Shown here piece by piece: positions 2,903 through 55,378 of a stretch of 64,000 nt of DNA. Under the pieces are notes generated by a model. That model made no database searches. It was given only the letters and a program-made list of their open reading frames with translations, and had not been told where the DNA came from. Made by a program: the position numbers and the translations under genes. Each line of letters starts with the position of its first letter. Position 1 is the stretch's first letter. Source of the stretch: Marmoricola sp. OAE513 (GTDB taxonomy: Bacteria > Actinomycetota > Actinomycetes > Propionibacteriales > Nocardioidaceae); contig NZ_JBEPOC010000001.1 of the NCBI RefSeq assembly GCF_040546585.1, forward strand, positions 1,860,001 to 1,924,000, written 5' to 3'.

Positions 2903-4354
2903 ATGTCCGCTGTGCCTCCTGACGGCCCTCTGCTGATGACGCAGGTCCAGGACCGTGCCGTCGCCGAGCTCCTCCGGATCGCACCGGTGATCGAGGAGCT
3001 CGGGGCCCGGTTCACGGCCGCCGGCGAGGAGATCGCCCTGGTCGGTGGGCCGGTCCGCGACGCGATGCTCGGCCGGCTCCAGAACGACCTGGACTTCACC
3101 ACCTCGGCCCGCCCCGAGGTCACCGAGCGCCTGGTCCGCGGGTGGGCCGACGCCGTGTGGGACATCGGCCGCGACTTCGGCACGATCGGTTGCCGGTACG
3201 GCGACTGGCAGCTGGAGATCACCACCTACCGCTCCGAGGCCTACGACGCCTCGAGCCGCAAGCCGGAGGTGTCCTACGGCGACTCCCTGGCCGGGGACCT
3301 GGTGCGTCGCGACTTCACCGTGAACGCGATGGCGCTCCGCCTGCCCGGCCGCGAGCTCGAGGACCCGTACGGCGGCATCGTCGACCTCGCGCACCGGGTG
3401 CTGCGGACACCGGGTCGCCCTGAGGACTCCTTCAGCGACGACCCGTTGCGGATGATGCGTGCGGCCCGGTTCGCCTCCCAGCTCGGTTTCACGGTCGCGC
3501 CCGAGGTCAGGGCTGCGATGACGGACATGGCCGAGCGGATCACGATCATCTCCGCCGAGCGGGTGCGCGACGAGCTGGTGAAGCTGATCTGCTCGCCGAC
3601 CCCGCGCACCGGTCTGCTTCTCCTGGTGGAGACCGGACTGGCGCAGCACGTGCTGCCCGAGCTGCCGGCGCTGATGCTCGAGCGCGACGAGCACCACCGG
3701 CACAAGGACGTCTACGAGCACACGCTCACGGTGCTCGAGCAGTCGATCGACCTGGAACACCGACTGCCCGGCGAAGGTCCGGACTTCATCTCACGCTTCG
3801 CCGCGCTGATGCACGACGTCGGCAAGCCACGGACCCGCAAGCTCGTCGGCGACGGCACCGTCACGTTCCACCACCACGACGTGGTCGGCGCGAAGATCAC
3901 CCGGAAGCGGATGCAGGCGCTGAAGTTCTCGAACGACGAGATCAACGACGTCAGCACGCTGGTCGAGCTGCACCTGCGGTTCCACGGGTACGGCGACGGT
4001 CAGTGGACCGACTCCGCCGTACGCCGCTACGTCCGGGACGCCGGTCCGCTGCTGGACCGGCTGCACGTGCTGACCCGCGCCGACTGCACCACGCGCAACC
4101 AGCGCAAGGCCGAGCGGCTCAGCCGGACCTACGACGAGCTGGAGGAGCGGATCGCGCGGCTCTCGGAGGAGGAGGAGCTCGCCTCGATCCGACCCGACCT
4201 CGACGGCAACCAGATCATGGAGATCCTGGGCATCCCCGCCGGGCGCCAGGTCGGCGAGGCGTACAAGTTCCTGCTCGAGCTGCGGCTCGACAACGGACCG
4301 ATGAGCTACGACGACGCCAAGGCCGCTCTGCTGGAGTGGGCCGCCGCCACCTAG
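2903..4354 (+). CDS. cca: CCA tRNA nucleotidyltransferase (class II)
   Basis: A 483-residue enzyme that adds or repairs the 3' CCA of tRNA. Visible motifs are the nucleotidyltransferase loop LVGGPVRDAMLG followed by the carboxylate pair in NDLDF, the RRDFTVNAMA motif, the RMMRAARFASQLGF segment of the neck, and a C-terminal HD domain with ALMHDVGKP. The ATG at 2903 is preceded by TAGAGT 8 nt upstream, so the mRNA is probably leaderless. The neighbour to the left is DUF6049-murJ, as in other actinobacteria; the usual MutT4-type gene is absent. The stop codon shares the tetranucleotide CTAG with the stop of the convergent Ig-repeat gene. Confidence 0.96.
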   Translation: MSAVPPDGPLLMTQVQDRAVAELLRIAPVIEELGARFTAAGEEIALVGGPVRDAMLGRLQNDLDFTTSARPEVTERLVRGWADAVWDIGRDFGTIGCRYGDWQLEITTYRSEAYDASSRKPEVSYGDSLAGDLVRRDFTVNAMALRLPGRELEDPYGGIVDLAHRVLRTPGRPEDSFSDDPLRMMRAARFASQLGFTVAPEVRAAMTDMAERITIISAERVRDELVKLICSPTPRTGLLLLVETGLAQHVLPELPALMLERDEHHRHKDVYEHTLTVLEQSIDLEHRLPGEGPDFISRFAALMHDVGKPRTRKLVGDGTVTFHHHDVVGAKITRKRMQALKFSNDEINDVSTLVELHLRFHGYGDGQWTDSAVRRYVRDAGPLLDRLHVLTRADCTTRNQRKAERLSRTYDELEERIARLSEEEELASIRPDLDGNQIMEILGIPAGRQVGEAYKFLLELRLDNGPMSYDDAKAALLEWAAAT

Positions 4355-7300
4355 GCCGGGTCGATCGTCAGGCTGACGTTCTTCGGGGTCGCCGCCAGCC
4401 CCGTGCTGGTCTGGGTGAACCGGAGCGTCACGGTGGCGGTGCCCTGGGACGTCGGGGTCCCGGTGATCTCGCCGGTGTCCTCGTCGATGTCCAGCCCGGC
4501 GGGTAGGCCGCTGGTCGCGGTCCACTTCCCTACCGGGTCGCCCTGGGCGTGCACGGTCTGGTCGTAACCCACCCCGACCTGACCGTTCGGCAACGTCGAG
4601 GTGGTGATCACCGGCGCGTCGGCCTCGTCGACGACCAGCGCGATCGTCTTGCCGGCGGCGGTCTGGCCGTTGACCGTGTAGCCGATCACGACGTTGGTGC
4701 TGCCGACCGTGGTCGGTGTGCCGGTGATCGCGCCCGTGCTCGCGTTCAACGAGAGGCCGTCGGGCAGCGGGGACGCCGTCCAGGTTCCGTTCTGGGTGCC
4801 GTCGAGGGTGAACGAGTACGCCTCGGTGCGGGTCGCGTGCGGGAGCGAGGCCGTGGTGATGACCGGCTTGACGGCGAGCGTGAGGGTCTTGGTCGCCGAG
4901 GTCTGGCCGTTGACCGTGTAGGTGATGGCGACATTCGTCGACCCGGCCGCCGTCGGGGTGCCGGACAGCTCCCCGGTGCTGGCGTCGATGCTGATCCCGG
5001 CCGGGCGCGGGGTGGCGGTCCAGGTCCCCCCGGTGCCTCCGGCCGCGGCCAGCGTCACCGAGTACGCCGTCCCGGTGGCGGCCGGGGCCAGCGAGGCCGT
5101 GGTGACCGTGGGCTTCACCGCCAGCGCGATCGTCTTGCCCGCCGAGGTCTGGCCGTTGACGGTGTAGGCGACCACCACGTTCGTCGTTCCCGCTGCGGTG
5201 GGGGTGCCGGACAGCTCCCCGGTGCTCGCGTTGATCGCGATGCCGGCCGGGCGCGGGGTGGCGGTCCAGGTACCGCCGGTGCCGCCGTTGGCGGTGAGGC
5301 TGTCGGAGTAGGCCGATCCGACGGTGCCGGTGTCGAGCGAGGTGCTCGTCACGACCGGCTTCACCGCGAGCACGAGGGTCTTCTGGGTGGCGGACAGTCC
5401 GGTGCTGGTCTGGGTGAAGTTGATGACGACGTTGGTCGAGCCGGCCGTGGTCGGCGTCCCGGTGATCGCGCCGGTGGACGTGTTGAGGTTCAGGCCGTCC
5501 GGCAGCGGGGTGGCCGACCAGGTGCCCGCGGGGTTGCCGGTCGCGGTCAGGGTGAAGGAGTACGCGGTCCCGACGGTCCCGGGGTCGAGCGTGCTCGTGG
5601 TGATGACCGGGGCGGGCGCCTCGTTGACGGTGATCGACACCGTCCGGGTCACCTGCGGTGCACCACCGTTGGCGGTCTGGGTGAACTTGAGGACCACGTC
5701 GTTCGAGGTGCCCACGGCGCTCGGGGTCCCCGTGATCGCGCCGCCGTTGCTGATGCTCAGACCGGCGGGGAGGTTGTCGGCCGCCCAGGTGCCGGCAGGG
5801 GTGCCGACGGCTGCGGCCTGGGTGTTGTAGGAGAGCGTCCGGGTCGCGTCGGGGAGGGCGGCGGTGGAGATCGCTGCGTTGACGACGAGGTTGAGTGTCT
5901 TGGTGTCGGCGGACAGTCCGGTGCTGGTCTGGGTGAATCCGACGACCACCGCGGTCGTGCCGGATGCGGTCGGGGTCCCGGTGATCGCACCGGTGCTCTG
6001 GTTGAGCGACAGGCCGGCGGGCAGCGGGCTCGCTGTCCAGGTGCCCGCCGGGTTCCCGGTGGCCGTCAACGTGACCGAGTAGCCGGAGGTGTTGACCGTG
6101 CCTGCGGGAAGAGCGTTGGTGCTGATCACGGGCTCGGCCGCCTCGACGACCTGCAGGCTGACGTTGCGGGTCACCTGCGGCGCGCCGCCGTTGGCGGTCT
6201 GGGTGAACTTCAGCGTGACCGTCTTGGTCTGCACGGTCGTCGGGGTGCCGGAGATGACGCCGGCGTTGCTGATGCTCAGGCCGTCGGGGAGGTTGTCGGC
6301 CGCCCAGGTGCCGGCCGGCGTACCGACGGCGGCGACCTGGGTGCTCGGGTAGGCGATCGTCCGGGTGCCGCTGGGCAGCGTGCTCGTCGAGATCGCCGCG
6401 TTCACCACCAGGCTCAGGTTCTTGGTGTGCGAGAGACCGCTGCTGGTCTGGGTGAACTTGAGCGCGACGGTGTAGGTGCCCGACGCGGTCGGCGTGCCCG
6501 AGAGGACACCGGTGCTTCCCGCGACACTGACGCCGTTGGGCAGCCCCGTTGCCGACCAGGTGCCGGCCGCGGGGCCGGTGGTGGTGACCGCCGGGGTGTT
6601 GCTCGTGTAGCTCTGGCCCACGTCGGCGGCGGTCAGGCTGGTCGTGGTGATGCTCGGTCCGGCGACCTCGAGGACCGTGATCGCGACGGTGCGCGTCACC
6701 TGCGGCGCACCGCCGTTGCCGGACTGGGTGAATTTGAGGGCGACGTTGTTGGTCGTGCCGACCGTGGTCGGCGTCCCGGTGATGAGACCGCCGGCGCTGA
6801 TGCTCAAGCCGGCGGGGAGGTTGTCGGCCGCCCAGGTGCCCGCCGGCGTACCGACGGCTGCGGCCTGGGTGCTGTAGGAGAGCGTCCGGGTCGCGTCGGG
6901 CAGCGTGCTCGTCGTGATCGCCGCGTTGACGAGCAGGTTGAGGGTCTTGGGCGTCGCCGCGACTCCGGTGGACGTCTGGGTGAAGCCGATCTGCACCGCG
7001 GTGGTGCCGGACGCGGTCGGCGTGCCGGTGATGGCGCCGGTGCCGGCGTTCAGGGAGAGCCCGGCCGGGAGCGGTGACGCCGTCCAGGTGCCGGCGGGGT
7101 TCCCGGTGGCAGTCAGCGTGGTGGAGTAGCCGCTCACGTTGACCGAGCCCGAGGGCAGCGAGCCGGTGCTGATCACGGGGGCAGCTGCCTGGACGACCTG
7201 GAGGGTGAGGGTCTTGGAGGTCGCGGCCAGGCCGGTGCTGGTCTGGGTGAACCCGATGACGACGTCCACGCTCTGCACGGTGGTCGGGGTGCCGGAGATG

Positions 7301-10300
7301 ACGCCGGTGCTCTCGTCCAGGTTCAGTCCGTCCGGGAGCGGTGACGCGGTCCAGGTGCCGGCGGGGTTGCCGGTGACGAGGAGCTTGAACGAGTACGCCG
7401 AGACCCGGGTGCCGTTGGGCAGGGACGTCGTGCTGATCACCGGCTTGGCGGCCTCGTTGACGACCAGGGCCAGCGTCTTGCCGGCCGCAGCGACACCGTT
7501 GCGGGTGAATCCGATGACGACGTTGGTCGACCCGACGGTCGTCGGTGTCCCGGTGATCGCACCCGTCGACGGGTTCAGGGTGAGGCCGTCCGGGAGCGGC
7601 GACGCGGTCCAGGTCCCCGCGCCGCCGGCAGCGACACCGAGCGTGACCGAGTACGGCGAGACGCGGGTGCCGGCCGGGAGCGAGCTCGTGCTGATGACCG
7701 GCCTGACCACGAGTGCGAGGGTCTTGGTCGTCGCGGCGACGTTGTTGCGGGTGAACCCGATGACGACGTTGGTCGTCCCGGCGTCGGTCGGAGCGCCGGT
7801 GATGGCACCGGTGGTCTCGTTCAGGGTCAGGCCCGCCGGCAGCGGGCTCGCCGTCCAGGTCCCCGTCCCGGTGGCACCCAGCGTGACCGAGTACGACGCG
7901 CCCACGGCTCCCTCGGACAGCGAGGTCGTGGTGATGACCGGCTTCACGTCGAGCGGCAGGTTCTTGGTGCTGGCCGCGACGCCGTCGCTGGTGAACCCGA
8001 TGACGACGTTGTTCTTGCCGGCCTCGGTCGGCGTACCGGAGATGACGCCTGTGCTGGCGTCCAGGTTCAGCCCGTCGGGCAGGGGTGCTGCGGTCCAGGT
8101 GCCCGCCCCGCCGGTGGCGGCCAGCGTCACCGAGTACGCGACGCCGTCGGAGGCACCGGGCAGCGAGGTCGTGGTGATGATCGGCTTCACGGCCAGCGCG
8201 AGCGTCTTCGTCGCGGAGTCGACGCCGCCCCGGTTCAGGCCGATGACGACGTTGGTGGTGCCGGCCGCGGTCGGTGTACCGGAGATGACACCGGTGCCCG
8301 CGTTCAGGGACAGCCCGGCCGGGAGCGGCGCGGCAGTCCAGGTGCCGTTGCTGCCGCCGTTGGCGGCCAGGGTGACCGAGTACGCCGCCCCGACGGTGGC
8401 GTCGGGCAGGGTGCCGGTGCCGATCACGGCCCTGATCACCAGCGGCAGCGTCTTGGTCGCCGAGGTCAGACCGCTGCTCGTCTTCTTGAAGGCGATCGCG
8501 ACGTTGGTGGTGCCGGCGGTGGTCGGCGTACCGGAGATGACGCCGGTGTCCTTGTTGAGCGCGAGCCCGGCCGGGAGCGGCGCGGCGGTCCAGGTGCCGG
8601 TCTGGTTGTTGTCCAGCGCCTTGAGGTCGAGCGAGTAGTTGGCGCCCGCGCTCCCCGGCAGCAGGCTGGTCTGCTCGATGCCCGGCAGCACCGTCAGGGT
8701 GATCGTCTTGACCGCGGCGTCTACGTTCGTGCTCGATTGCTTGAAGCCGATCTGGACGCTGGTCGCTCCCGAGGTCGTCGGGGTGCCGGAGATGACGCCC
8801 GTGCTGGTGTTCAGGGACAGGCCGGCCGGCAGGGTGCTCGTCGACCACGTGCCCGCGGGGTTGCCGGTGGCGGTCAGCGTCGTCGTGTACGCCGACCCGA
8901 CGGTGGCGGTCGGCAGCGACGAGGTGGCGATGACCGGCGGGTCGGCCTGGAGGATCTTCAGCGCGAGGGCCTTGGTCCCGGTGACGCCCGTGCTCGCCTG
9001 GGTGAAGGTCAGCGTGACGGTGCCGTCGAAGAGGACGGTGGGCGTCCCGAGGATCTCACCGCTGCCTGCGTCGATCGAGAGCCCACTGGGGAGCCCGGTC
9101 GCGCCCCAGCTCCCGGCAGGGTTGCCCGTGACGCTCGGGGTGAACGAGTACTGCGTCAGCCGCTTGCCGCTGGGCAGCGACGTCGTGCTGATCACCGGGG
9201 GGTCGGCCTGGACGACCTGCAGGGGGACGGTCCTGCTGGCGGAGACGCCGGTGCTGGTCTGGGTGAAGGTGAGCACGACGTTGGTGGTGCCGACGGTCGT
9301 GGGGGTACCCGAGACGACGCCGGTGCCGGAGTCGACGGAGAGGCCGGGGGGCAGCGGGCTGGCCGCCCAGGTTCCTCCGGCGGTGCCGGTCACGGTTGCG
9401 GCCAGCGTCACCGAGTACGGCGAGAGACGCTTCGCGCTGGGCAGGGTGCTCGTGGTGACGACGGGCGCGGGCGCCTCGTCGACGTGCAGCTTCATGGTGT
9501 GCGGCACCGCGGCGACACCGGTGCTGGTCTGGGTGAAGTTGACGGTGACGTCGGTGTCGCCGATCGTCGTCGGCGAGCCGGTGATCTTGCCGGTCGAGGC
9601 CTCCAGCGAGAGCCCGTCGGGCAGCGGTGCCGCGGTCCAGGTGCCGGGCGGGTTGCCCTGCGCGGTGAGGGTCACGGAGTAGGGGCGGGTGCGGTTCCCG
9701 CTCGCGAGCGCGTTGGTGGTGATCACCGGCGCGGGCGCCTGGTTGACCGTGATGCCGACGGTCTTCGGGGGCGAGGTGTCCCCGTTGCTCGTGCGCGTGA
9801 ACTGCACCTCGGTCGCGGTGAACTGGACGGTCGTCGGGGTGCCGGAGATGACGCCGGTGCTCGGGTTCAGCGAGAGTCCGGCCGGGAGCGGGCTCGCGGT
9901 CCAGGTGCCGGTGTACCCGTCGATGGTGGTGAGCCTCGCCGAGTAGGGGACGGTCCGGGTGGCCGTGGGGAGGGTCTGCGTCGCGACCACCGGGGTCGTC
10001 GACACGGTGACCGTCGGCGACACCGCGGCGGCGTTGTTCCCGGCGTTCGGGACCGAGATCCGGATCGGGGTCGTGGGCCCGACCGCGACGACCTTGTTGA
10101 AGGTGCCGTCGGCAGCGAGCGCCGTGGTGGTGATGTTGGTCCAGGTGCCGTTGAAGTTCTTCTGCACCGCGACGAGGGTGTTCCGCACGAACGGCTTGAC
10201 CGTGCCGGTCAGGGTCGTGCTCGACCCGGCCGGGATCAGCGTCGGGTTCGCGACCAGGGTGACGGTGGTCCTGTTCAGCGCCCGGACGCTGACCGTGCGC

Positions 10301-10689
10301 GAGGCAGCGGCCCGGAGCTTCTTCTTCCTGGGGGCGTACGCGCGGTAGGCGTAGGTGCCGGCCGAGCCGGGCTGGGTGAGCGTGACCTTGTAGGCGCCAC
10401 CGCTGGTGGTCGTCCTCGTCGACTTGATGCCGACCCAGGTCGACCCGATCCGGCGCTGCAGCGTGATCGTGCTTCCCTTCGGAGACTTGCTGAGCCTGCC
10501 GGAGAACGTGACCGCGCCCTTGACCAGGGTCGTCGACGCGGACTGGCTGATGCTCACCGACCGCGAGATGGTCGCCTTCCTGGTCTTGGCGGACGCCGGG
10601 GCACCGAGGCCCGTCGCCAGGAAGCCGGTCGTCAGCAGCAGACCTGCGACGACCAGGGCGGTCAGGCGGAACGGGTGCGGGAGGTGCAT
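4351..10689 (-). CDS. Giant secreted protein with two N-terminal Ig-like domains and 22 putative-Ig (He_PIG-type) repeats
   Basis: A 2112-residue protein. Residues 1-34 form a signal peptide (ALVVAGLLLTTGFLATGLGA, cleavage near ASA). Residues about 40-190 are two Ig-like domains that recur in both downstream paralogues. The rest is about 22 tandem units of about 87 residues, each with a GTWTASPLPAGLSLN-type strand, STGVISGTPT, and a closing KTLTLVV strand. This resembles Pfam He_PIG. There is no LPXTG motif, no C-terminal helix and no catalytic domain; the protein ends in NVSLTIDPA. Function is unknown; a surface, matrix or adhesin role is inferred. The ATG at 10689 has GAGG 5 nt upstream and a TAGCCT -10-like box at 10730-10725. 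Confidence 0.9.
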   Translation of the reverse strand: MHLPHPFRLTALVVAGLLLTTGFLATGLGAPASAKTRKATISRSVSISQSASTTLVKGAVTFSGRLSKSPKGSTITLQRRIGSTWVGIKSTRTTTSGGAYKVTLTQPGSAGTYAYRAYAPRKKKLRAAASRTVSVRALNRTTVTLVANPTLIPAGSSTTLTGTVKPFVRNTLVAVQKNFNGTWTNITTTALAADGTFNKVVAVGPTTPIRISVPNAGNNAAAVSPTVTVSTTPVVATQTLPTATRTVPYSARLTTIDGYTGTWTASPLPAGLSLNPSTGVISGTPTTVQFTATEVQFTRTSNGDTSPPKTVGITVNQAPAPVITTNALASGNRTRPYSVTLTAQGNPPGTWTAAPLPDGLSLEASTGKITGSPTTIGDTDVTVNFTQTSTGVAAVPHTMKLHVDEAPAPVVTTSTLPSAKRLSPYSVTLAATVTGTAGGTWAASPLPPGLSVDSGTGVVSGTPTTVGTTNVVLTFTQTSTGVSASRTVPLQVVQADPPVISTTSLPSGKRLTQYSFTPSVTGNPAGSWGATGLPSGLSIDAGSGEILGTPTVLFDGTVTLTFTQASTGVTGTKALALKILQADPPVIATSSLPTATVGSAYTTTLTATGNPAGTWSTSTLPAGLSLNTSTGVISGTPTTSGATSVQIGFKQSSTNVDAAVKTITLTVLPGIEQTSLLPGSAGANYSLDLKALDNNQTGTWTAAPLPAGLALNKDTGVISGTPTTAGTTNVAIAFKKTSSGLTSATKTLPLVIRAVIGTGTLPDATVGAAYSVTLAANGGSNGTWTAAPLPAGLSLNAGTGVISGTPTAAGTTNVVIGLNRGGVDSATKTLALAVKPIITTTSLPGASDGVAYSVTLAATGGAGTWTAAPLPDGLNLDASTGVISGTPTEAGKNNVVIGFTSDGVAASTKNLPLDVKPVITTTSLSEGAVGASYSVTLGATGTGTWTASPLPAGLTLNETTGAITGAPTDAGTTNVVIGFTRNNVAATTKTLALVVRPVISTSSLPAGTRVSPYSVTLGVAAGGAGTWTASPLPDGLTLNPSTGAITGTPTTVGSTNVVIGFTRNGVAAAGKTLALVVNEAAKPVISTTSLPNGTRVSAYSFKLLVTGNPAGTWTASPLPDGLNLDESTGVISGTPTTVQSVDVVIGFTQTSTGLAATSKTLTLQVVQAAAPVISTGSLPSGSVNVSGYSTTLTATGNPAGTWTASPLPAGLSLNAGTGAITGTPTASGTTAVQIGFTQTSTGVAATPKTLNLLVNAAITTSTLPDATRTLSYSTQAAAVGTPAGTWAADNLPAGLSISAGGLITGTPTTVGTTNNVALKFTQSGNGGAPQVTRTVAITVLEVAGPSITTTSLTAADVGQSYTSNTPAVTTTGPAAGTWSATGLPNGVSVAGSTGVLSGTPTASGTYTVALKFTQTSSGLSHTKNLSLVVNAAISTSTLPSGTRTIAYPSTQVAAVGTPAGTWAADNLPDGLSISNAGVISGTPTTVQTKTVTLKFTQTANGGAPQVTRNVSLQVVEAAEPVISTNALPAGTVNTSGYSVTLTATGNPAGTWTASPLPAGLSLNQSTGAITGTPTASGTTAVVVGFTQTSTGLSADTKTLNLVVNAAISTAALPDATRTLSYNTQAAAVGTPAGTWAADNLPAGLSISNGGAITGTPSAVGTSNDVVLKFTQTANGGAPQVTRTVSITVNEAPAPVITTSTLDPGTVGTAYSFTLTATGNPAGTWSATPLPDGLNLNTSTGAITGTPTTAGSTNVVINFTQTSTGLSATQKTLVLAVKPVVTSTSLDTGTVGSAYSDSLTANGGTGGTWTATPRPAGIAINASTGELSGTPTAAGTTNVVVAYTVNGQTSAGKTIALAVKPTVTTASLAPAATGTAYSVTLAAAGGTGGTWTATPRPAGISIDASTGELSGTPTAAGSTNVAITYTVNGQTSATKTLTLAVKPVITTASLPHATRTEAYSFTLDGTQNGTWTASPLPDGLSLNASTGAITGTPTTVGSTNVVIGYTVNGQTAAGKTIALVVDEADAPVITTSTLPNGQVGVGYDQTVHAQGDPVGKWTATSGLPAGLDIDEDTGEITGTPTSQGTATVTLRFTQTSTGLAATPKNVSLTIDPA
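4360..9990 (-). repeat. Tandem array of 22 about 260-bp Ig-repeat units
   Basis: Coding DNA repeats inside the giant protein gene. I counted 22 GTW...LP.GL...G.(I/L)(S/T)GTPT cores in the translation. Units are not uniform. Three alternate units (centred near 6840, 6310 and 5770) share the variant AVGTPAGTWAADNLP, and each is preceded by a canonical unit. This suggests duplication of a two-unit block of about 520 bp. Confidence 0.85.
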
Positions 10690-10744
10690 CGGTGCCTCGA
10701 GAAGTGCGTGGGAGGAAGATCTTCAGGCTAGGTGAGAACGCCCG

Positions 10745-10773
10745 CACGGGGTAGGCGAGATCCCTACCCCGTG
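10745..10773 (-). terminator. Hairpin terminator downstream of the 8-repeat Ig gene
   Basis: Perfect 11-bp stem CACGGGGTAGG/CCTACCCCGTG with a 7-nt loop, 42 bp past the stop of the gene ending at 10815. It has no T-run, which is common for actinobacterial terminators. It separates that gene from the promoter of the giant gene. Confidence 0.7.
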
Positions 10774-10814
10774 GGCGTGGTGGAGCTGTTCAGTTGTGGG
10801 TGCGCGGCTGGTGC

Positions 10815-13634
10815 TCAGGAGACCTTGATGGAGAAGGTCTTCTCCGTGAACAGGTTGGTGCCCGTCTCGGTGAACCGCACGATGTAGGTGAAGTTGCCGG
10901 GCAGCGTGGTCGAGCCGCTGATCCGGCCGTCACTCTTCAGCGTCAGGCCCAGGGCGGGGTTGCTGCCCGGTCGCAGGGTCCAGGTGCCGGTCGGGGCCGG
11001 AGCAACCTCCAGCTGGTAGGAGTACCCCTGCAGCGGGGTCCCGTGCGGCAGGGTCGAGGGGCTGGTGATGATCGGCGCCGACTGGACGACGTGCAGCACC
11101 AGCGTCTTCGACGCCGCGGCCTGACCGGAGTTGGTCTGGACGAAGTCGAACTTGATGTTCGTGTCGCCCGCCAGACGCGGCGTTCCGGACAGCTCCCCGG
11201 TCGCGGTGTTGAAGGTCATCCCGGCCGGCAGCGGCGATGCCGTCCAGGTACCCGCCGGGTTCCCGGCGACCGTGAGGGTCGTCGAGTAGGCGTGGTACCG
11301 CAGCGCGTCCGGGAGGACGGTCGTGGTGATGACCGGTGCGACGGCCTGCTTCACCGTGAGGACCAGGACCTTCGGCGTTGCCGAGAGCCCGCTGCTGGTC
11401 TGGGTGAAGCCGAGGGTGACCTCGTGGTTGCCCACCTGGTCGGCAGCGGTCACCGTGCCGGTGATCTTGCCGGTGGCCGGGTTGAGCACCAGGCCGCCCG
11501 GGAGACCGGTGGCCGTCCACGTGCCCGCGACGTTCCCCTGCGAGGTGAGCGTGAACTCGTAGGGCAGGTACCGGGTCGCGTCGGGCAGCGCACCGGTCGC
11601 GATCACCGGGGCAGCCACCTGGTTGACGTGCAGCGTCAGCGTCTTGCTGATCGCGGCGACACCGGTGCTGGTCTGGGTGAACCCGATGACGACCTGCGTG
11701 TCCCCGGCGGCGGTCGGCGTACCGGAGATGACACCCGTGGTCGGGTTCAGCTCCAGGCCGGCCGGCAGCGGTGCTGCCGTCCAGGTACCGCCCGCCGCAG
11801 CGTTCGGGTTCTGGGTCGCCGTGAGCTGGAAGTTGTACGGCGAGAACCGGTCGGCGGGCGTCAGCACCGTGGTCGCGATGACCGGTGCCGCTGCCTGGTT
11901 GACCTTGAGGTTCAGCACCTTCGGCGTGGCCGCCAGACCGTTGCTGGTCTGGGTGAACCCGATGGTGACGGGGTTGTCACCCAGGTTGGCGGTCCCGGTG
12001 ATGGTCCCGGTGATCTTGCCGGTGGACGCCTCCAGCGACAGGCCGGCCGGGAGGCCGTCCGCCGTCCAGGTGCCCGCCGGGGCACCCTGGGCCGCCAGGG
12101 TGAAGTCGTAGGACACGAACCGGGTGGCCTCGGGCAGGGACGCCGTGCTGATCACCGGGTTCGCGCCCGGGTCGATCTGCAGCAGCAGCGTCTTGCTGGT
12201 CGCGGCCACACCCGTGCTGGTCTGGGTGAAGCCGATGACGACCTGCTTGTCGACCGCGGTCGGCTCCGGGGTGCCGGAGATGACGCCGGTCGCGGCGTTG
12301 AGTGTCAGGCCGTCAGGCAGCGGTGCTGCGGTCCAGGTGCCGACGGCCGGGGTGTTGCCACCGGCCTGGCTCGCGGTCAGCTGGAAGCTGTACGGCGCAC
12401 CCTTGGTACCCGGGTCGAGCGCCGTCGTGGTGATGGTCGGCTTCGCCGCCTCACCCACGGTCAGGGCGATCGTCTTCGGCGTCGCGGAGAGGCCGGTGTT
12501 GGTCTGGGTGAACCCGACCATGACCTGCTTGGTCTCGGCGACGGTCGGCGTACCGGAGATGGTGCCGGTGGCGGCGTCCAGAGCAAGGCCGGACGGGAGC
12601 GGCGAGGCCGTCCAGGTGCCGGTGGCGCCGTTGGCGGCCAGCGTGGTCGAGTACGGCGTCCCGACGGTGCCGTTGGGCAGCGTCGTCGTGCTGATCGTGG
12701 GCGCCACCGCCTGGTTGACGCGCAGGGTCAGCGTCTTGGTCGCGGCGTTCAGACCGGTGCTGGTCTGCTTGAACCCGATGACGACGTTGGTGTCACCGAT
12801 GGTCGTCGGCGAGCCGGAGATGACGCCGGTGGTCGCGTTGAGGGTGAGGCCGGCAGGGAGCGGCGCGGCCGTCCAGGTGCCGACCGAGCCGGCGTACGAG
12901 CTGAGCTTGAAGGAGTAGCTGCCCAGCCGGGTGGCGGCAGTGAGGCTCGAGGTCGTGATCAGCGGCTTCGCGGTGACCGAGCGCTCGTTGGACAGGACCG
13001 GGGCGTTGCTGCCGGCGCGCGGCACCGAGGCCCGGTAGATCGTGGAGGTCACCGGGACGATGCCCTTGCTGAACGTGCCGTTGGCCGTGACCGAGGTGGT
13101 GCCGACCGTCGTCCAGGAGGAGCCGACCTTCTTCTGCAGGGTGACGACGGTGCCCTTGGCGAACGGGAAGACCGTTCCGGCCAGGGTCGTCGTGCTCCCC
13201 GCGGTGGTCGAGGCAGGCGTGGCGGAGAGCGAGGCGTACGTGCGGCGCAGGGCCGCGACCGAGACGGACTTCGAGGTGGCGGCCTTCAGGCTGCCCTTCT
13301 TCTTCACCGAGGCGCGGTAGGAGTAGGTGGCGATCGACTTCGGGCGGGTGAGCCGGACGGCGTAGCTGCCGGCGGAGCTGACCGTCCTGGTCGAGCCGGC
13401 CGTGACCCACTTCTTCCCGGACTTGCGCTGGATCGTCACCTTGGTGCCCTTGGGGGACTTGGTGACCTTGCCCGAGAACGTCACCGACGTGCCGACCGGG
13501 GCGACGGCCGGCGAGGCCGCGATGCTCACGCTGCGCTTGGTCGCGGCGGACGCCGCTGACTGCAGCCCGGTGACGATCAGGAAGGCGGCGACGAGCGCAG
13601 CGACGATGCGGAAAGCGTTGATTCTCGAGAACAT
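10815..13634 (-). CDS. Secreted protein with two N-terminal Ig-like domains and 8 He_PIG-type repeats
   Basis: A 939-residue paralogue of the giant protein. The signal peptide is MFSRINAFRIVAALVAAFLI... with cleavage near ASAATK. It continues with the shared two-domain N-terminus (TKSPKGTKVTIQRKSGKKW and GTVFPFAKGTVVTLQKK), then eight putative-Ig units. The last unit is divergent (GTWTLRPGSNPALGLTLKS) and the protein ends FTEKTFSIKVS, with no sorting signal or membrane anchor. I chose the ATG at 13634 over one 25 codons upstream because the signal peptide begins there and GAGG lies 6 nt before it. It is on the same strand as its neighbours but bounded by hairpins on both sides, so it is probably its own transcript. 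Function is unknown. Confidence 0.88.
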   Translation of the reverse strand: MFSRINAFRIVAALVAAFLIVTGLQSAASAATKRSVSIAASPAVAPVGTSVTFSGKVTKSPKGTKVTIQRKSGKKWVTAGSTRTVSSAGSYAVRLTRPKSIATYSYRASVKKKGSLKAATSKSVSVAALRRTYASLSATPASTTAGSTTTLAGTVFPFAKGTVVTLQKKVGSSWTTVGTTSVTANGTFSKGIVPVTSTIYRASVPRAGSNAPVLSNERSVTAKPLITTSSLTAATRLGSYSFKLSSYAGSVGTWTAAPLPAGLTLNATTGVISGSPTTIGDTNVVIGFKQTSTGLNAATKTLTLRVNQAVAPTISTTTLPNGTVGTPYSTTLAANGATGTWTASPLPSGLALDAATGTISGTPTVAETKQVMVGFTQTNTGLSATPKTIALTVGEAAKPTITTTALDPGTKGAPYSFQLTASQAGGNTPAVGTWTAAPLPDGLTLNAATGVISGTPEPTAVDKQVVIGFTQTSTGVAATSKTLLLQIDPGANPVISTASLPEATRFVSYDFTLAAQGAPAGTWTADGLPAGLSLEASTGKITGTITGTANLGDNPVTIGFTQTSNGLAATPKVLNLKVNQAAAPVIATTVLTPADRFSPYNFQLTATQNPNAAAGGTWTAAPLPAGLELNPTTGVISGTPTAAGDTQVVIGFTQTSTGVAAISKTLTLHVNQVAAPVIATGALPDATRYLPYEFTLTSQGNVAGTWTATGLPGGLVLNPATGKITGTVTAADQVGNHEVTLGFTQTSSGLSATPKVLVLTVKQAVAPVITTTVLPDALRYHAYSTTLTVAGNPAGTWTASPLPAGMTFNTATGELSGTPRLAGDTNIKFDFVQTNSGQAAASKTLVLHVVQSAPIITSPSTLPHGTPLQGYSYQLEVAPAPTGTWTLRPGSNPALGLTLKSDGRISGSTTLPGNFTYIVRFTETGTNLFTEKTFSIKVS

Positions 13635-13746
13635 CAGTTGCCTCTGTACGCGGGAGGGGAAGACGATTTGCCACCCAGCGTAGGCGTTGGGAGGCCTGAA
13701 TGCGGACAAACTGCGTCATCCGCTGGGCAGAGCCGGGAACGCAGAG

Positions 13747-13776
13747 CGGCCCCTGACAGCAGAGCGTCAGGGGCCG
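13747..13776 (-). terminator. Hairpin terminator downstream of the Ig/RCC1 gene
   Basis: Perfect 11-bp stem CGGCCCCTGAC/GTCAGGGGCCG with an 8-nt loop, 20 bp beyond the stop codon at 13796 in the direction of leftward transcription. There is no U-tract. Confidence 0.75.
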
Positions 13777-13795
13777 CCGATGCGTTACGGGTGGA

Positions 13796-16366
13796 TCAGC
13801 CGACGACCTTCGTCGGCACCGCGACCCGGGCCGTGCCCGCGCCGGCGTTCGCCTTGGACTTGTAGTTGCTGCCCCAGACGTAGGTGTCGCCGTTCTCCTG
13901 GGCCGCAGCGGAGTGCGTGGCGCCCGCCGAGACCGAGATCCAGTCGGTGCCCGAGCCGATCTTGGTCGGAACCAGGCGGTTGGTGACGCTGTTGTCGCCG
14001 AGCTGGCTCTCGCCGTTGGCGCCCCAGCACCAGAGCTCACCGGCCGTGTTCGTCGCGCAGGTGTGGCCCTTCCCGGTGGCGAAGGAGACCCAGGTCGTCG
14101 CGGTGCCTACCTTGCGCGGGCTCCGCTCGTCCGTGCTGGTGTCGTTCAGGCTGACGTTGTTGCCGAGCTGCCCGTTGGCGGCCGTGCCCCAGCACCACAG
14201 GGTGCCGTCGACCTGGCGGCCGCAGGCGTGCCCCGGACCGACCTGGACGCCGGTCCAGGCTGCCGTGCCGACCTTGGCCGGAGTCGCCTGCGAGTCGGTG
14301 TTCCCGGTGCCGAGCTGGCCACGCGAGCCCATGCCCCAGCAGAACAGGCCGCCGGTGGCCTTCACCGCGCAGGTCGTGGTGTAGCCGGCCGACACCGACT
14401 CCCAGTCCGAGGCGCTGCCGACCCGGGTCGGCGAGCTGGCGTCGCCGCCGCCGGTGCCGAGCTGGCCGAACGTGTTCTCGCCCCAGCAGTAGAGCTCGCC
14501 GGCGGTGGTGACACCGCAGGTGTGCGTCCAACCGGCCGAGATGCTCTGCCAGTCGCGGCCGCCGGCGACGGCGACCGGCGCGGTCTCCGACCCGTTGGCG
14601 ACCCCGTTCCCGAGCATGCCCTTCTTGTTCGAGCCCCAGCAGTACGCGTCGTCACCCCGCAGCCCGCAGGCGTGGCCCTCGGTCGGCAGGTCGTCGTCGC
14701 TGACGCTGATCGCGGTCCAGTCGGTGGCGGTACCGACCTGCGTGGGCGCGGAGACGCCGGCGGGGTCGACGGTCAGGACGCCGCCGTCCCCGAGCTGGCC
14801 GGCGTCGTCGTACCCCCAGCAGTCGAGCGTGCGGTCCTGGTTGATCCGGCAGGTCGAGCTGCCTCCGGCTTCGACCGCCGCCCTGGTGGCGGGGAACCCG
14901 GTGGCGACCACCTTCCACACGTACGTCGCTGACGCGACCGGCTTGCTCGGCACCGCGTAGGTGATCACGGTGGTGTAGGTCCCAGCGATCGCGCTGGTGC
15001 CGCTGAGGACACCCGTGGCGGCGTCGATGTCGATGCCGACCGGCTTGCCGGACTGGACGTTCCAGACTCCGCCCGGCTCGGAGGCCTTGAGCGTGAACGA
15101 GTAGGCCGCGAACTGCGAGGCGTTGGGCAGGGTCACGGTGCGGATCGACGGCGCCGGCGGCGGGTTGATCGTGAGCGCCAACTGCTTGCCCGGTGCTGCG
15201 AGACCGGTGCTGGTCTGGGTGAAGCCGATGTTCACGTTGGTCGTGCCCGAGGCGGTCGGCGTACCGGAGATGACGCCGGTGCCCGCGTTCAGGGTGAGGC
15301 CCGCCGGCAGGGGCGCGGCCGTCCAGGTACCGCCCGGGTTGCCCTGGGCCGTGAGCGTCGTGGTGTAGCCGACTCCCTGGTCGCCCTCGGGCAGCGAGCT
15401 CGTCGCGATGGTCGGCGGGACGGGGGCGGTGATCGTCAGGTTGATCGCCTTCGAGGCGGTCACCCGGGCCGGCTGGGCGAAGCGGAAGGTGTACGCGGCC
15501 TGCGGGGTCGCGGCTGTCGGCGTACCGGTGATGGCACCGGAGGTGGTGTTCAGGGTGAGCCCGTTCGGCAGCGCCGGGGTCACGCTCCAGGTGCCGGCGG
15601 CCGTGCCGACCTGCTTCACGGTCGCGCTGTACGGCGCTCCCTGCGAGCCGTTGGGCAGCGAGGTCGTGGCGATGACCGGGTTGGCGATCACGGCGGTGCC
15701 GACCGAGACGGCCGACGACTTCAGTCCGACGCGCGGGACGAAGACGCGGTAGACCGAGGTGTCCTTGGTGACTACGGCCTTCGAGTAGGTCCCCTTGCTG
15801 CTCAGCTTGGCGGTGGCGCCGGTGCCCAGCCACTTCCCGTTGACGAACTTCTGGATCACCACGGTGGTGTTCTTGACGAACGGCTTCACGGCGCCGGAGA
15901 CCGTCGAGGTCGCCCCGGCGGTCACGGTGGTGGGGCTGGCCTTGATCGTCGCGGTGACGCCGGTCAGGGCGGCGACCTTGAGGGTCTTGGAGGTGGCGGC
16001 CGACAGGCTGCCCTTCTTCGCGGCCACGGCACGGAACGCGTAGGTGCCGGCCTTGCGCGGCAGGATCACCTTGCCGGCGTACCGGCCTGCGGAGGTGGAG
16101 GTCTTCGCGGTCTTCGCGGCGACCCACTTCGTGCCGACCTTGCGCTGGATCGTGACCTTGGTGCCCTTCGGCGACTTGGTCAACGTGCCGGAGAAGGTCA
16201 CGGTCTTGCCGACCACGGCAGCGCTCGGGCTGGCCTTGATGCTCAGCGAGCGCTTGGTGGCCGCGTCCGCGGGAGCGCTCAGCGCGCCGACCGCCAGCAC
16301 GGCTGCCAGCAGGGCGACCAGGAATCGGAGCGGGGGCTTGACCGGGTTCAGGACTCGGACCGACAC
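13796..16366 (-). CDS. Secreted Ig-repeat protein with a C-terminal seven-bladed RCC1-like propeller
   Basis: An 856-residue protein in three parts: signal peptide (RFLVALLAAVLAVGALSAPA), the same two N-terminal Ig-like domains as the two downstream genes, then three He_PIG-type units, and from about residue 500 seven RCC1-like repeats. Blades read CWGYDDAGQLGDGG, CWGSNKKGMLGNG, CWGENTFGQLGTGG, CWGMGSRGQLGTG, CWGTAANGQLGNN, CWGANGESQLGDN and a last degenerate VWGSNYKSKA. The first six each carry a second Cys 8-11 residues before CWG, suggesting one disulfide per blade outside the cell. Start is GTG 16366, with GAGG 6 nt upstream, matching the spacing in the paralogues; a longer reading frame exists. 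Partner and function are unknown. Confidence 0.88.
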   Translation of the reverse strand: MSVRVLNPVKPPLRFLVALLAAVLAVGALSAPADAATKRSLSIKASPSAAVVGKTVTFSGTLTKSPKGTKVTIQRKVGTKWVAAKTAKTSTSAGRYAGKVILPRKAGTYAFRAVAAKKGSLSAATSKTLKVAALTGVTATIKASPTTVTAGATSTVSGAVKPFVKNTTVVIQKFVNGKWLGTGATAKLSSKGTYSKAVVTKDTSVYRVFVPRVGLKSSAVSVGTAVIANPVIATTSLPNGSQGAPYSATVKQVGTAAGTWSVTPALPNGLTLNTTSGAITGTPTAATPQAAYTFRFAQPARVTASKAINLTITAPVPPTIATSSLPEGDQGVGYTTTLTAQGNPGGTWTAAPLPAGLTLNAGTGVISGTPTASGTTNVNIGFTQTSTGLAAPGKQLALTINPPPAPSIRTVTLPNASQFAAYSFTLKASEPGGVWNVQSGKPVGIDIDAATGVLSGTSAIAGTYTTVITYAVPSKPVASATYVWKVVATGFPATRAAVEAGGSSTCRINQDRTLDCWGYDDAGQLGDGGVLTVDPAGVSAPTQVGTATDWTAISVSDDDLPTEGHACGLRGDDAYCWGSNKKGMLGNGVANGSETAPVAVAGGRDWQSISAGWTHTCGVTTAGELYCWGENTFGQLGTGGGDASSPTRVGSASDWESVSAGYTTTCAVKATGGLFCWGMGSRGQLGTGNTDSQATPAKVGTAAWTGVQVGPGHACGRQVDGTLWCWGTAANGQLGNNVSLNDTSTDERSPRKVGTATTWVSFATGKGHTCATNTAGELWCWGANGESQLGDNSVTNRLVPTKIGSGTDWISVSAGATHSAAAQENGDTYVWGSNYKSKANAGAGTARVAVPTKVVG

Positions 16367-16524
16367 GATGTACCTCGGAGTTGCACTGGGAGGTGGCGTG
16401 GGTCCCCCCGAACCACGTTCCAGGGTAGGTGTGGCGGGAGAGGTTCGTGGGGAAAAGGTCAACTCGCCCTCCCGCTAGCATCGGGGCGTTCCCAGGACCG
16501 CGCACAGCCACCGAGGAGACCCCC
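16367..16524. promoter_or_regulatory. Divergent promoter region between the Ig/RCC1 gene and the SRPBCC gene
   Basis: A leftward -10-like TACCCT lies at 16427-16422, about 56 bp before the GTG of the Ig/RCC1 gene. A rightward TAGCAT lies at 16476-16481, about 44 bp before the SRPBCC ATG. No clear -35 boxes were seen. Confidence 0.35.
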
Positions 16525-18776: not shown

Positions 18777-19868
18777 TCAGCGCTCGACCTCGCCGCGGAT
18801 GAACGCCTCGACGGAGGCCTGGCCCTCGTCGTCCGGGCGCTGCACCGGCGGGGACTTCATCAGGTAGGAGCTCGCCGAGAGCAGCGGGCCACCGACGCCG
18901 CGGTCCTTGGCGATCTTCGCCGCACGGATCGCGTCGATGATGATGCCGGCCGAGTTCGGGGAGTCCCAGACCTCCAGCTTGTACTCGAGGTTGAGCGGAA
19001 CGTCACCGAAGGCGCGACCCTCGAGGCGGACGTAGGCCCACTTGCGGTCGTCGAGCCACGCGACGTAGTCGCTCGGGCCGATGTGCACGTTCTTGTCGTA
19101 GACCTTGCCGGCCAGCGGACCGTTCAGGTTGGACGTCACGGCCTGGGTCTTCGAGACCTTCTTGGACTCCAGGCGCTCGCGCTCGAGCATGTTCTTGAAG
19201 TCCATGTTGCCGCCGACGTTGAGCTGGTAGGTGCGGTCCAGCGCGACACCGCGGTCCTCGAACAGCTTCGCCATCACGCGGTGGGTGATGGTGGCGCCGA
19301 CCTGGCTCTTGATGTCGTCACCGATGATCGGGACGCCGGCGTCCTCGAACTTCTTGGCCCACTCGGGGTCGGAGGCGATGAAGACAGGCAGCGCGTTGAC
19401 GAAGGCCACGCCCGCGTCGATCGCGCACTGGGCGTAGTACTTGTCGGCGATCTCGGAACCGACCGGCAGGTAGGAGACGAGCACGTCGACCTGGGCGTCC
19501 TTGAGCGTCTGCACGACGTCGACGGCCGGAGCGTCGGACTCCTCGATGGTCTCGAGGTAGTACTTGCCGAGGCCGTCGTTGGTGACGCCGCGGGAGACGA
19601 TCACGCCGGTCGGCGGGACGTCGGCGATGCGGATGGTGTTGTTCTCCGAGTTGTTGATCGCGTCGGAGAGGTCGAAGCCGACCTTCTTGGCGTCGACGTC
19701 GAACGCGGCGACGAACTCGACGTCGCGGACGTGGTAGTCGCCGAACATGACGTGCATGAGACCCGGCACGGTGTCGCTCGGGTCGGCGTTCTTGTAGTAC
19801 TCGACGCCCTGGACCAGGGAGCTGGCGCAGTTGCCGACTCCCACGATGCCTACGCGAACCTTCGCCAT
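18777..19868 (-). CDS. ino1: myo-Inositol-1-phosphate synthase
   Basis: A 363-residue NAD-dependent isomerase converting glucose-6-phosphate to inositol-1-phosphate, the entry step to phosphatidylinositol, mycothiol and related lipids in actinobacteria. It has the Rossmann start [18 protein letters not shown], the [20 protein letters not shown] segment, [15 protein letters not shown], and the catalytic-domain [12 protein letters not shown] and SKTQAVTSN motifs. Length matches the short actinobacterial form. The ATG at 19868 has GAAGGAGAAG just upstream. padR ends 55 bp upstream on the same strand, so the two are probably cotranscribed from the iteron-containing region. Confidence 0.96.
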
Positions 19869-47080: not shown

Positions 47081-47154
47081 CCGGTCATCGAGCCTGCCGA
47101 GATGGGGTGAGGTCTGAGCCCGGGCCCCCACGTCTCGGCAAGCTCGACGACCGG
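47081..47154. repeat. Inverted pair of the interspersed repeat, forming a long hairpin
   Basis: CCGGTCATCGAGCCTGCCGA and onward (47081-47107) pairs with 47126-47154, which contains CGTCTCGGCAAGCTCGACGA. The arms are about 27 bp with two mismatches and a 2-nt bulge. It starts 17 bp after the dienelactone hydrolase stop and could terminate both convergent transcripts. Confidence 0.7.
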
Positions 47155-47240
47155 TCAGCAGGCTCGACGACCGGTCAGCAGGCTCGACGACCGGTCAGCA
47201 GGCTCGACGACCAGTTAGCAGGCTCGACGAGCGCTCAGCG
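47141..47240. repeat. Five tandem 20-bp repeats
   Basis: The unit GGCTCGACGACCGGTCAGCA recurs at 47141, 47161, 47181, 47201 and 47221 with an exact 20-bp period. The first copy differs in one base, the fourth in two, and the fifth is diverged after CTCGACGA. The last copy runs into the stop of the small membrane protein gene. It is derived from the arm of the adjacent hairpin. Confidence 0.9.
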
Positions 47241-55228: not shown

Positions 55229-55246
55229 ACGCTCGCCGAGCCTGCC

Positions 55247-55378
55247 CCGTCGTCGAGCTTGCCCCCGGTCGTCGAGCCTGCCGAGACGCGGTGGCCGGGG
55301 TCGTTCGGTCGTCGAGCTTGCCGAGACGTGGTGACCGGGGGTTCGCTCGGTCGTCGAGCCTGCCGAGACGCGGTGACC
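55247..55378. repeat. Three direct copies plus a partial copy of the interspersed repeat at a convergent junction
   Basis: CGGTCGTCGAGCCTGCCGAG continuing ACGCGGTGRCC occurs at 55266-55296, 55306-55336 and 55348-55378; copy two has T for C in two places. A partial degenerate copy lies at 55247-55268. It fills the 175-bp gap between the acylase and nuclease-like stops. Confidence 0.85.

Follow-up and report, generated by a model that had tools for sequence, protein, structure and literature searches.

The three genes between cca and ino1 in the window (the whole stretch of 64,000 nucleotides analysed here) encode secreted, probably rod-like proteins and most likely belong to a young, fast-evolving cell-surface stalk family of one actinobacterial group. 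The preferred reading, which is held at about even confidence, is that they encode secreted, fibrillar-adhesin-like stalk proteins, each tethered by a basic N-terminal pair of Ig-like domains, with a propeller at the tip of the gene 3 product. The genes lie in a row on the minus strand, with cca on one side and a polyketide-cyclase-like gene on the other, beyond which are found a gene for a PLP enzyme and then ino1. Gene 1 and cca are convergent and their stop codons overlap by 4 nt; the array gene thus abuts cca, as had been described. The features are as follows.

2903..4354, plus strand: cca (tRNA nucleotidyltransferase), conserved left flank, from Pfam and comparison within the genus
4351..10689, minus strand: gene 1, secreted protein of 2112 aa; signal peptide, basic Ig-like pair and 22 He_PIG repeats
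9991..10575, minus strand: gene 1 N-terminal Ig-like pair, net charge +23
4354..9990, minus strand: gene 1 array of 22 He_PIG units of 80-89 aa each
10815..13634, minus strand: gene 2, secreted protein of 939 aa, ATG start; signal peptide, basic Ig-like pair and 8 He_PIG repeats
12963..13547, minus strand: gene 2 N-terminal Ig-like pair, net charge +29
10821..12959, minus strand: gene 2 array of 8 He_PIG repeats
13796..16366, minus strand: gene 3, secreted protein of 856 aa, GTG start; signal peptide, basic Ig-like pair, 3 He_PIG repeats and RCC1-like domain
15677..16264, minus strand: gene 3 N-terminal Ig-like pair, net charge +32
14924..15676, minus strand: gene 3 array of 3 He_PIG repeats
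13799..14902, minus strand: gene 3 RCC1-like propeller, six Cys pairs (seven in relatives)
18777..19862, minus strand: ino1 (myo-inositol-1-phosphate synthase), conserved right flank

A preliminary description, made from the sequence, had recognized three consecutive same-strand genes with 22, 8 and 3 He_PIG repeats and an RCC1-like domain in the third only, and these counts proved exact: He_PIG (PF05345) scores above the Pfam gathering score 22, 8 and 3 times in genes 1, 2 and 3, and RCC1-like (PF25390) is found in gene 3 alone, at 209.7 bits against a cut-off of 150. The common 5' layout it described is likewise present. GAGG precedes the start codon by 5 nt in gene 1 and by 6 nt in genes 2 and 3, all three proteins have signal peptides with AxA sites (by home-made rules, as used also for membrane helices), and about 195 N-terminal residues are shared, with 47-50% identity when aligned to gene 2. 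Each protein would be exported by means of its cleaved signal peptide. Two candidate assignments for the locus were discarded: a defence system, as PADLOC gave no match, and phage cargo, as the PHROG tail matches coincide with the He_PIG repeats. A search of positions 1-24000 of the window against Rfam gave no RNA family match.

The N-terminal pair has no Pfam model above cut-off, yet the two Ig-like domains proposed earlier are supported by structure prediction. AlphaFold2, given five natural sequences, predicts a pair of Ig-like sandwiches and, after them, two He_PIG domains, with a mean pLDDT of 93.9, although the relative positions of the domains are uncertain because pTM is 0.68. Compared with PDB structures, the N-terminal pair gives Z scores of about 10-11, and these matches indicate only that the fold is Ig-like. 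For the modeled He_PIG pair, the cadherin-like modules of SraP are the best PDB match (159 residues, Z 13.3, rmsd 7.7), and the first two He_PIG repeats are also similar to SraP in sequence (E 8.6e-6). The models thus indicate Ig and cadherin-like folds for the first four domains.

The Ig-like pair is set apart from the rest of the protein by its charge. Net charge of the pair is positive in all 29 genes surveyed (+6 to +33, pI 9.8-12), with the Ig segment matched only in part in three of them. The remainder of the protein is less charged than the pair in 29 of 29 and is near neutral or acidic, except in one record that a contig end truncates (+5). Over its first 195 mature residues the family has a mean charge of +20, compared to at most +14 in other secreted-like proteins at the same loci, a rough control of about 24 proteins from which second-genus relatives of the family were set aside. 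Lying at the new N-terminus, the strongly basic pair of Ig-like domains could hold non-covalently to anionic wall or matrix polymers. The neutral or acidic He_PIG repeats could then build an extended stalk with a fixed length for each gene: short for gene 3, medium and constant for gene 2, and very long (22 units) for gene 1, whose array is estimated at roughly 80-100 nm when fully extended. It may tentatively be proposed, as a possibility held below even confidence, that the basic Ig pair is a new portable N-terminal non-covalent tether to wall or matrix that carries exchangeable stalks and heads. The exchangeable parts would be He_PIG arrays and RCC1, to which the pair's weaker relatives add a GDPD enzyme and PD40 propellers; other weaker relatives are stand-alone.

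The same charge could serve a different end. The proteins may be released into the matrix, with the basic pair cross-linking acidic exopolysaccharide or extracellular DNA; the arrays would then be spacers of a biofilm or colony matrix and not cell-bound stalks. This alternative is rather doubtful, but it agrees with the basic pair, with the lack of an anchor motif and with the occurrence of a stand-alone pair in the same genome, and sequence alone does not separate it from wall binding. The fixed eight repeats of gene 2 speak against it, as they suggest a required length. For the preferred tether reading, on the other hand, the stand-alone pair (226 aa) is a difficulty: it implies either that the pair does more than anchor a stalk or that its gene is a remnant.

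The usual anchors are lacking. Lipoprotein and sortase anchoring were rejected for the proteins of the window, which contain no lipobox, no sortase motif and no convincing membrane helix. Gene 2 (1.73) and a gene of G005 (1.68) score slightly above the helix threshold, in single weak scan segments that are not read as helices. An NPTTG string near the C-terminus of two proteins at the nitronate-monooxygenase site reads as chance. The C-terminus has neither a sortase motif nor a membrane helix nor any known anchor domain, which weighs against the improbable arrangement in which the N-terminal pair serves as adhesive head while a C-terminal mechanism holds the array in the envelope. That arrangement is the usual order in Gram-positive adhesins (PMC8286594), and the arrays of genes 1 and 2 do extend to the extreme C-terminus, but the C-terminus of gene 3 is the propeller.

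The likely counterpart of gene 1 in G020 (L063_3, next to cca) has four He_PIG repeats versus 22 in the window, and its repeats 1-3 find their best or near-best match in repeats 1-3 of gene 1, in order. Within gene 1, a segmental duplication links units 12-13 with 16-17 (81% amino acid and 78% DNA identity). Adjacent units share 39-73% amino acid identity (mean 53%) and 50-76% DNA identity. Variation by repeat gain had been proposed for the locus as a whole, and comparison of the arrays demonstrates it for gene 1 alone. Gene 2 at the cca site has exactly eight repeats in each of the five species that have this gene there, counts between species resting on one genome per species. In six species pairs, matching the gene 2 repeats in order is better than matching them permuted (permutations as good, 0.0003 to 0.05), suggesting that repeat order has been kept in part between species. 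Gene 3 at the cca site has three repeats elsewhere too, except for four in G018 and a G020 copy cut by a contig end. The locus therefore offers a natural series of stalk lengths side by side (3, 8 and 22 repeats), in which one length is conserved and another expanded.

It is highly unlikely that these are functionless, degenerating repeat genes kept only through recent duplication. Evolution is fast, with dN/dS of 0.5-0.86 in more distant pairs, and the family is missing from the cca site in G006, as that explanation would have it. However, the frames are long and intact in the carriers, gene 2 repeat order is partly kept, the motif upstream of the genes is conserved, and gene 2 of G013 and G017 gives a dN/dS of about 0.27, indicative of purifying selection between close species (0.02 for cca).

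Gene 3 is distinguished by its C-terminal domain. Its 12 cysteines are all in the propeller, where they form six pairs with partners 9-10 residues apart and near-constant spacing; the last blade lacks both partners, and genes 1 and 2 have no cysteine. This pattern is consistent with intrablade disulfides in an exported protein, and the short stalk would end in a propeller, probably disulfide-stabilized, that would bind a ligand. BLIP-II is an example of a secreted RCC1-like propeller in actinobacteria, and the gene 3 propeller might analogously be secreted to bind or inhibit wall enzymes, with genes 1 and 2 as duplicates that lost it. The RCC1 architecture is present in a second genus too, as would suit such a role, but gene 2 is itself conserved between species and this explanation is very improbable. 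BLIP-II entries are absent from the PDB sequence matches up to E 10, and an AlphaFold model of the propeller made without an alignment reached only pLDDT 45, too poor for a structural comparison. No viral contigs encoding the RCC1 domain of gene 3 were found.

In the preferred reading, the stalk proteins would be separately transcribed paralogues of a family with several chromosomal sites. The signals for expression are listed here.

10739..10777 (about), minus strand: hairpin after gene 2, terminator-like, no T-run
13746..13777 (about), minus strand: hairpin after gene 3, terminator-like, no T-run
10725..10730, minus strand: candidate -10 of gene 1, TAGCCT, inside the shared motif CYTASSCTG
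13677..13682, minus strand: candidate -10 of gene 2, TACGCT, inside CYTASSCTG
16422..16427, minus strand: candidate -10 of gene 3, TACCCT, inside CYTASSCTG

Strong hairpins do follow the two upstream genes, 3 and 2, as previously described. CYTASSCTG lies 43, 50 and 63 nt before the starts of genes 1, 2 and 3, respectively. It occurs ahead of 11 of 13 genes of the cca site, versus 0.07 expected from Markov sequences, a comparison that overstates the enrichment because the motif was defined post hoc on the same sequences and orthologues are not independent. Because hairpins lie 3' of genes 3 and 2 and the motif precedes each start, separate transcription of the three genes is suggested and an operon is not favored. 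At other sites of the family, the leaders contain instead a short hairpin whose GTGGG loop is conserved. Pairing holds in all 60 cells across ten sequences, with changes on both sides at three of the six pairs. The GTGGG hairpin was also considered as the mark of a wider regulon and this was rejected, since, across 24 genomes, a model of the hairpin gave no convincing hit beyond the family itself.

The family is not restricted to the cca site. The genome of the window (3.89 Mb, one contig) has two further loci: two genes near a nitronate-monooxygenase-like gene, with 9 and 5 He_PIG repeats (counts from a custom model, Pfam agreeing on the 9), and the stand-alone Ig pair, two genes downstream of groEL. 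Among sister genomes, family genes directly follow groEL in G005 and G006, and the nitronate-monooxygenase site is occupied by the family in G005, G006 and G020; names of flanking genes at these two sites were assigned by reading the proteins and not by family search. The idea of a unique three-gene island is therefore rejected. Of the lineage-specific secreted module that had been placed between cca and ino1, what stands is a lineage-specific, secreted, probably surface or matrix, family with genes inserted there, and what falls is the single module.

Of 24 genomes of the genus, 22 allowed cca and ino1 to be placed, and the intervals between them were read. From cca to the PLP gene there are three family genes in G000, two each in G018 and G017, one each in G005, G013 and G011, and at least three, across a contig break, in G020; G006 and the remaining genomes read lack the family in this interval. 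In a tree of cca plus ino1 from 21 genomes, the carriers and G006 form one group (support 0.715 with G011, 0.992 without) within which branch support is weak. Carriers make up seven of the eight genomes of this group and none of the 13 others on the tree. The simplest history would be one arrival at the cca site followed by loss in G006.

Full-length matches above 100 bits were found in only two genera among 197 genomes of the taxonomic family; beyond it, 296 genomes sampled from the phylum yielded weak Ig-like matches but no strong one. The same three genes were thus not encountered in many unrelated actinobacteria, a result that would have contradicted a lineage-specific origin. One further relative is a Propionibacteriales MAG record (JAPLCB010000002). 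Four genomes of the second genus encode the Ig pair with three He_PIG repeats and RCC1 (829-840 aa) at other loci, three of these genes being near an apparent Fe-S (suf) cluster. The domain layout of gene 3 therefore either predates the cca site or is independent of it, and the domain swapping that the preliminary description envisaged is not recent at this locus. The searched literature, which left most subscription journals outside its scope, contains no paper on these proteins, and as far as it goes the function of the family is undescribed, as had been surmised.

Several known systems resemble these proteins in part. RCC1-like propellers include those of UVR8, HERC and RCC1 and the secreted BLIP-II; gene 3 has RCC1 repeats far over the Pfam cut-off, but its propeller is secreted, borne on a stalk and carries paired cysteines within its blades. 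SraP is an adhesin that is anchored by sortase and has a head of lectin type. The CDHL modules of Staphylococcus aureus SraP (PDB 4m00, 4m03) are the best match to the first two He_PIG repeats, whereas the family proteins have neither a lectin module nor a sortase motif. Periscope Proteins have tandem repeats of over 50 residues with at least 80% identity (PMC8201768). Gene 1 is similar in that repeat number differs between relatives (4 versus 22), but adjacent repeats, with a mean of 53% and a highest value of 73%, fall under 80%, and gene 2 has a constant repeat number across the species seen.

The closest likeness is to fibrillar-adhesin-like proteins (PMC8286594, PMC9210967), which are also large and secreted with Ig-like stalk repeats. 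Signal peptide, large size and repeated stalk domains are all present here. Pfam reveals no known adhesive domain, the RCC1 domain of gene 3 not being established as adhesive, and no known surface anchor (sortase motif, SLH, LysM or membrane helix) was found. Because both a known adhesive domain and a known anchor are missing, the family is not filed as a proven fibrillar adhesin, yet it probably works like one. Genes 1 and 2 differ from the published proteins in lacking a known adhesive domain, and all three in the presumed basic N-terminal tether, with the propeller of gene 3 C-terminal. In Gram-positive fibrillar adhesins the adhesive part is usually N-terminal and the anchor C-terminal (PMC8286594); the order proposed here is reversed, with the tether N-terminal, which counts against the proposal, as does the lack of a recognized adhesive domain in genes 1 and 2. 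About half of the published fibrillar-adhesin-like proteins also have no recognized anchor (PMC8286594, PMC9210967), and the Ig pair, found at the N-terminus of stalk, propeller and stand-alone proteins, is a testable candidate for one such missing adhesin anchor.

Family members at other chromosomal sites share a 5' leader hairpin and a -10-like TANNNT. The hairpin has six pairs with compensatory changes and a GTGGG loop. Examples, in the coordinates of each extracted locus, are:

L041:10511-10600, leader hairpin upstream of the gene at L041:7457-10543
L065, L066, L067, L068, L070, L071, L089, L090 and L091, further leaders with the hairpin

Across 24 genomes, the GTGGG-loop hairpin had no convincing match beyond the family, and the window lacks it. 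At the window site, the gene 3 leaders of the window's own genome and of two others of the genus (G005 and G020) have a different stretch in common:

window 16390-16420, TYCGGGGGGAC-type stretch; also in the gene 3 leaders of L059 and L064

This stretch could form a small GGGG-loop hairpin directly 3' of the candidate -10 of gene 3. Elsewhere in the window, short tandem repeats occur in two places, with similar units that contain GTCGTCGAGCCTGC or its complement:

window 47138-47239, short tandem repeats
window 55233-55378, short tandem repeats

Related domains also occur in other arrangements:

L045:3261-7763 (-), secreted protein of 1500 aa with several He_PIG repeats
L042:7073-7753 (+), secreted stand-alone Ig pair without repeats, 226 aa, net charge +27

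The He_PIG repeats of the former lie in its C-terminal part, and its N-terminus differs, appearing beta-helix-like by eye. The window's own genome encodes a further RCC1-containing gene (G000:C1:198914-201454), whose match to the N-terminal pair is weak. The stand-alone Ig pair gene lies two genes past groEL, a site that in sister genomes carries full stalk genes.
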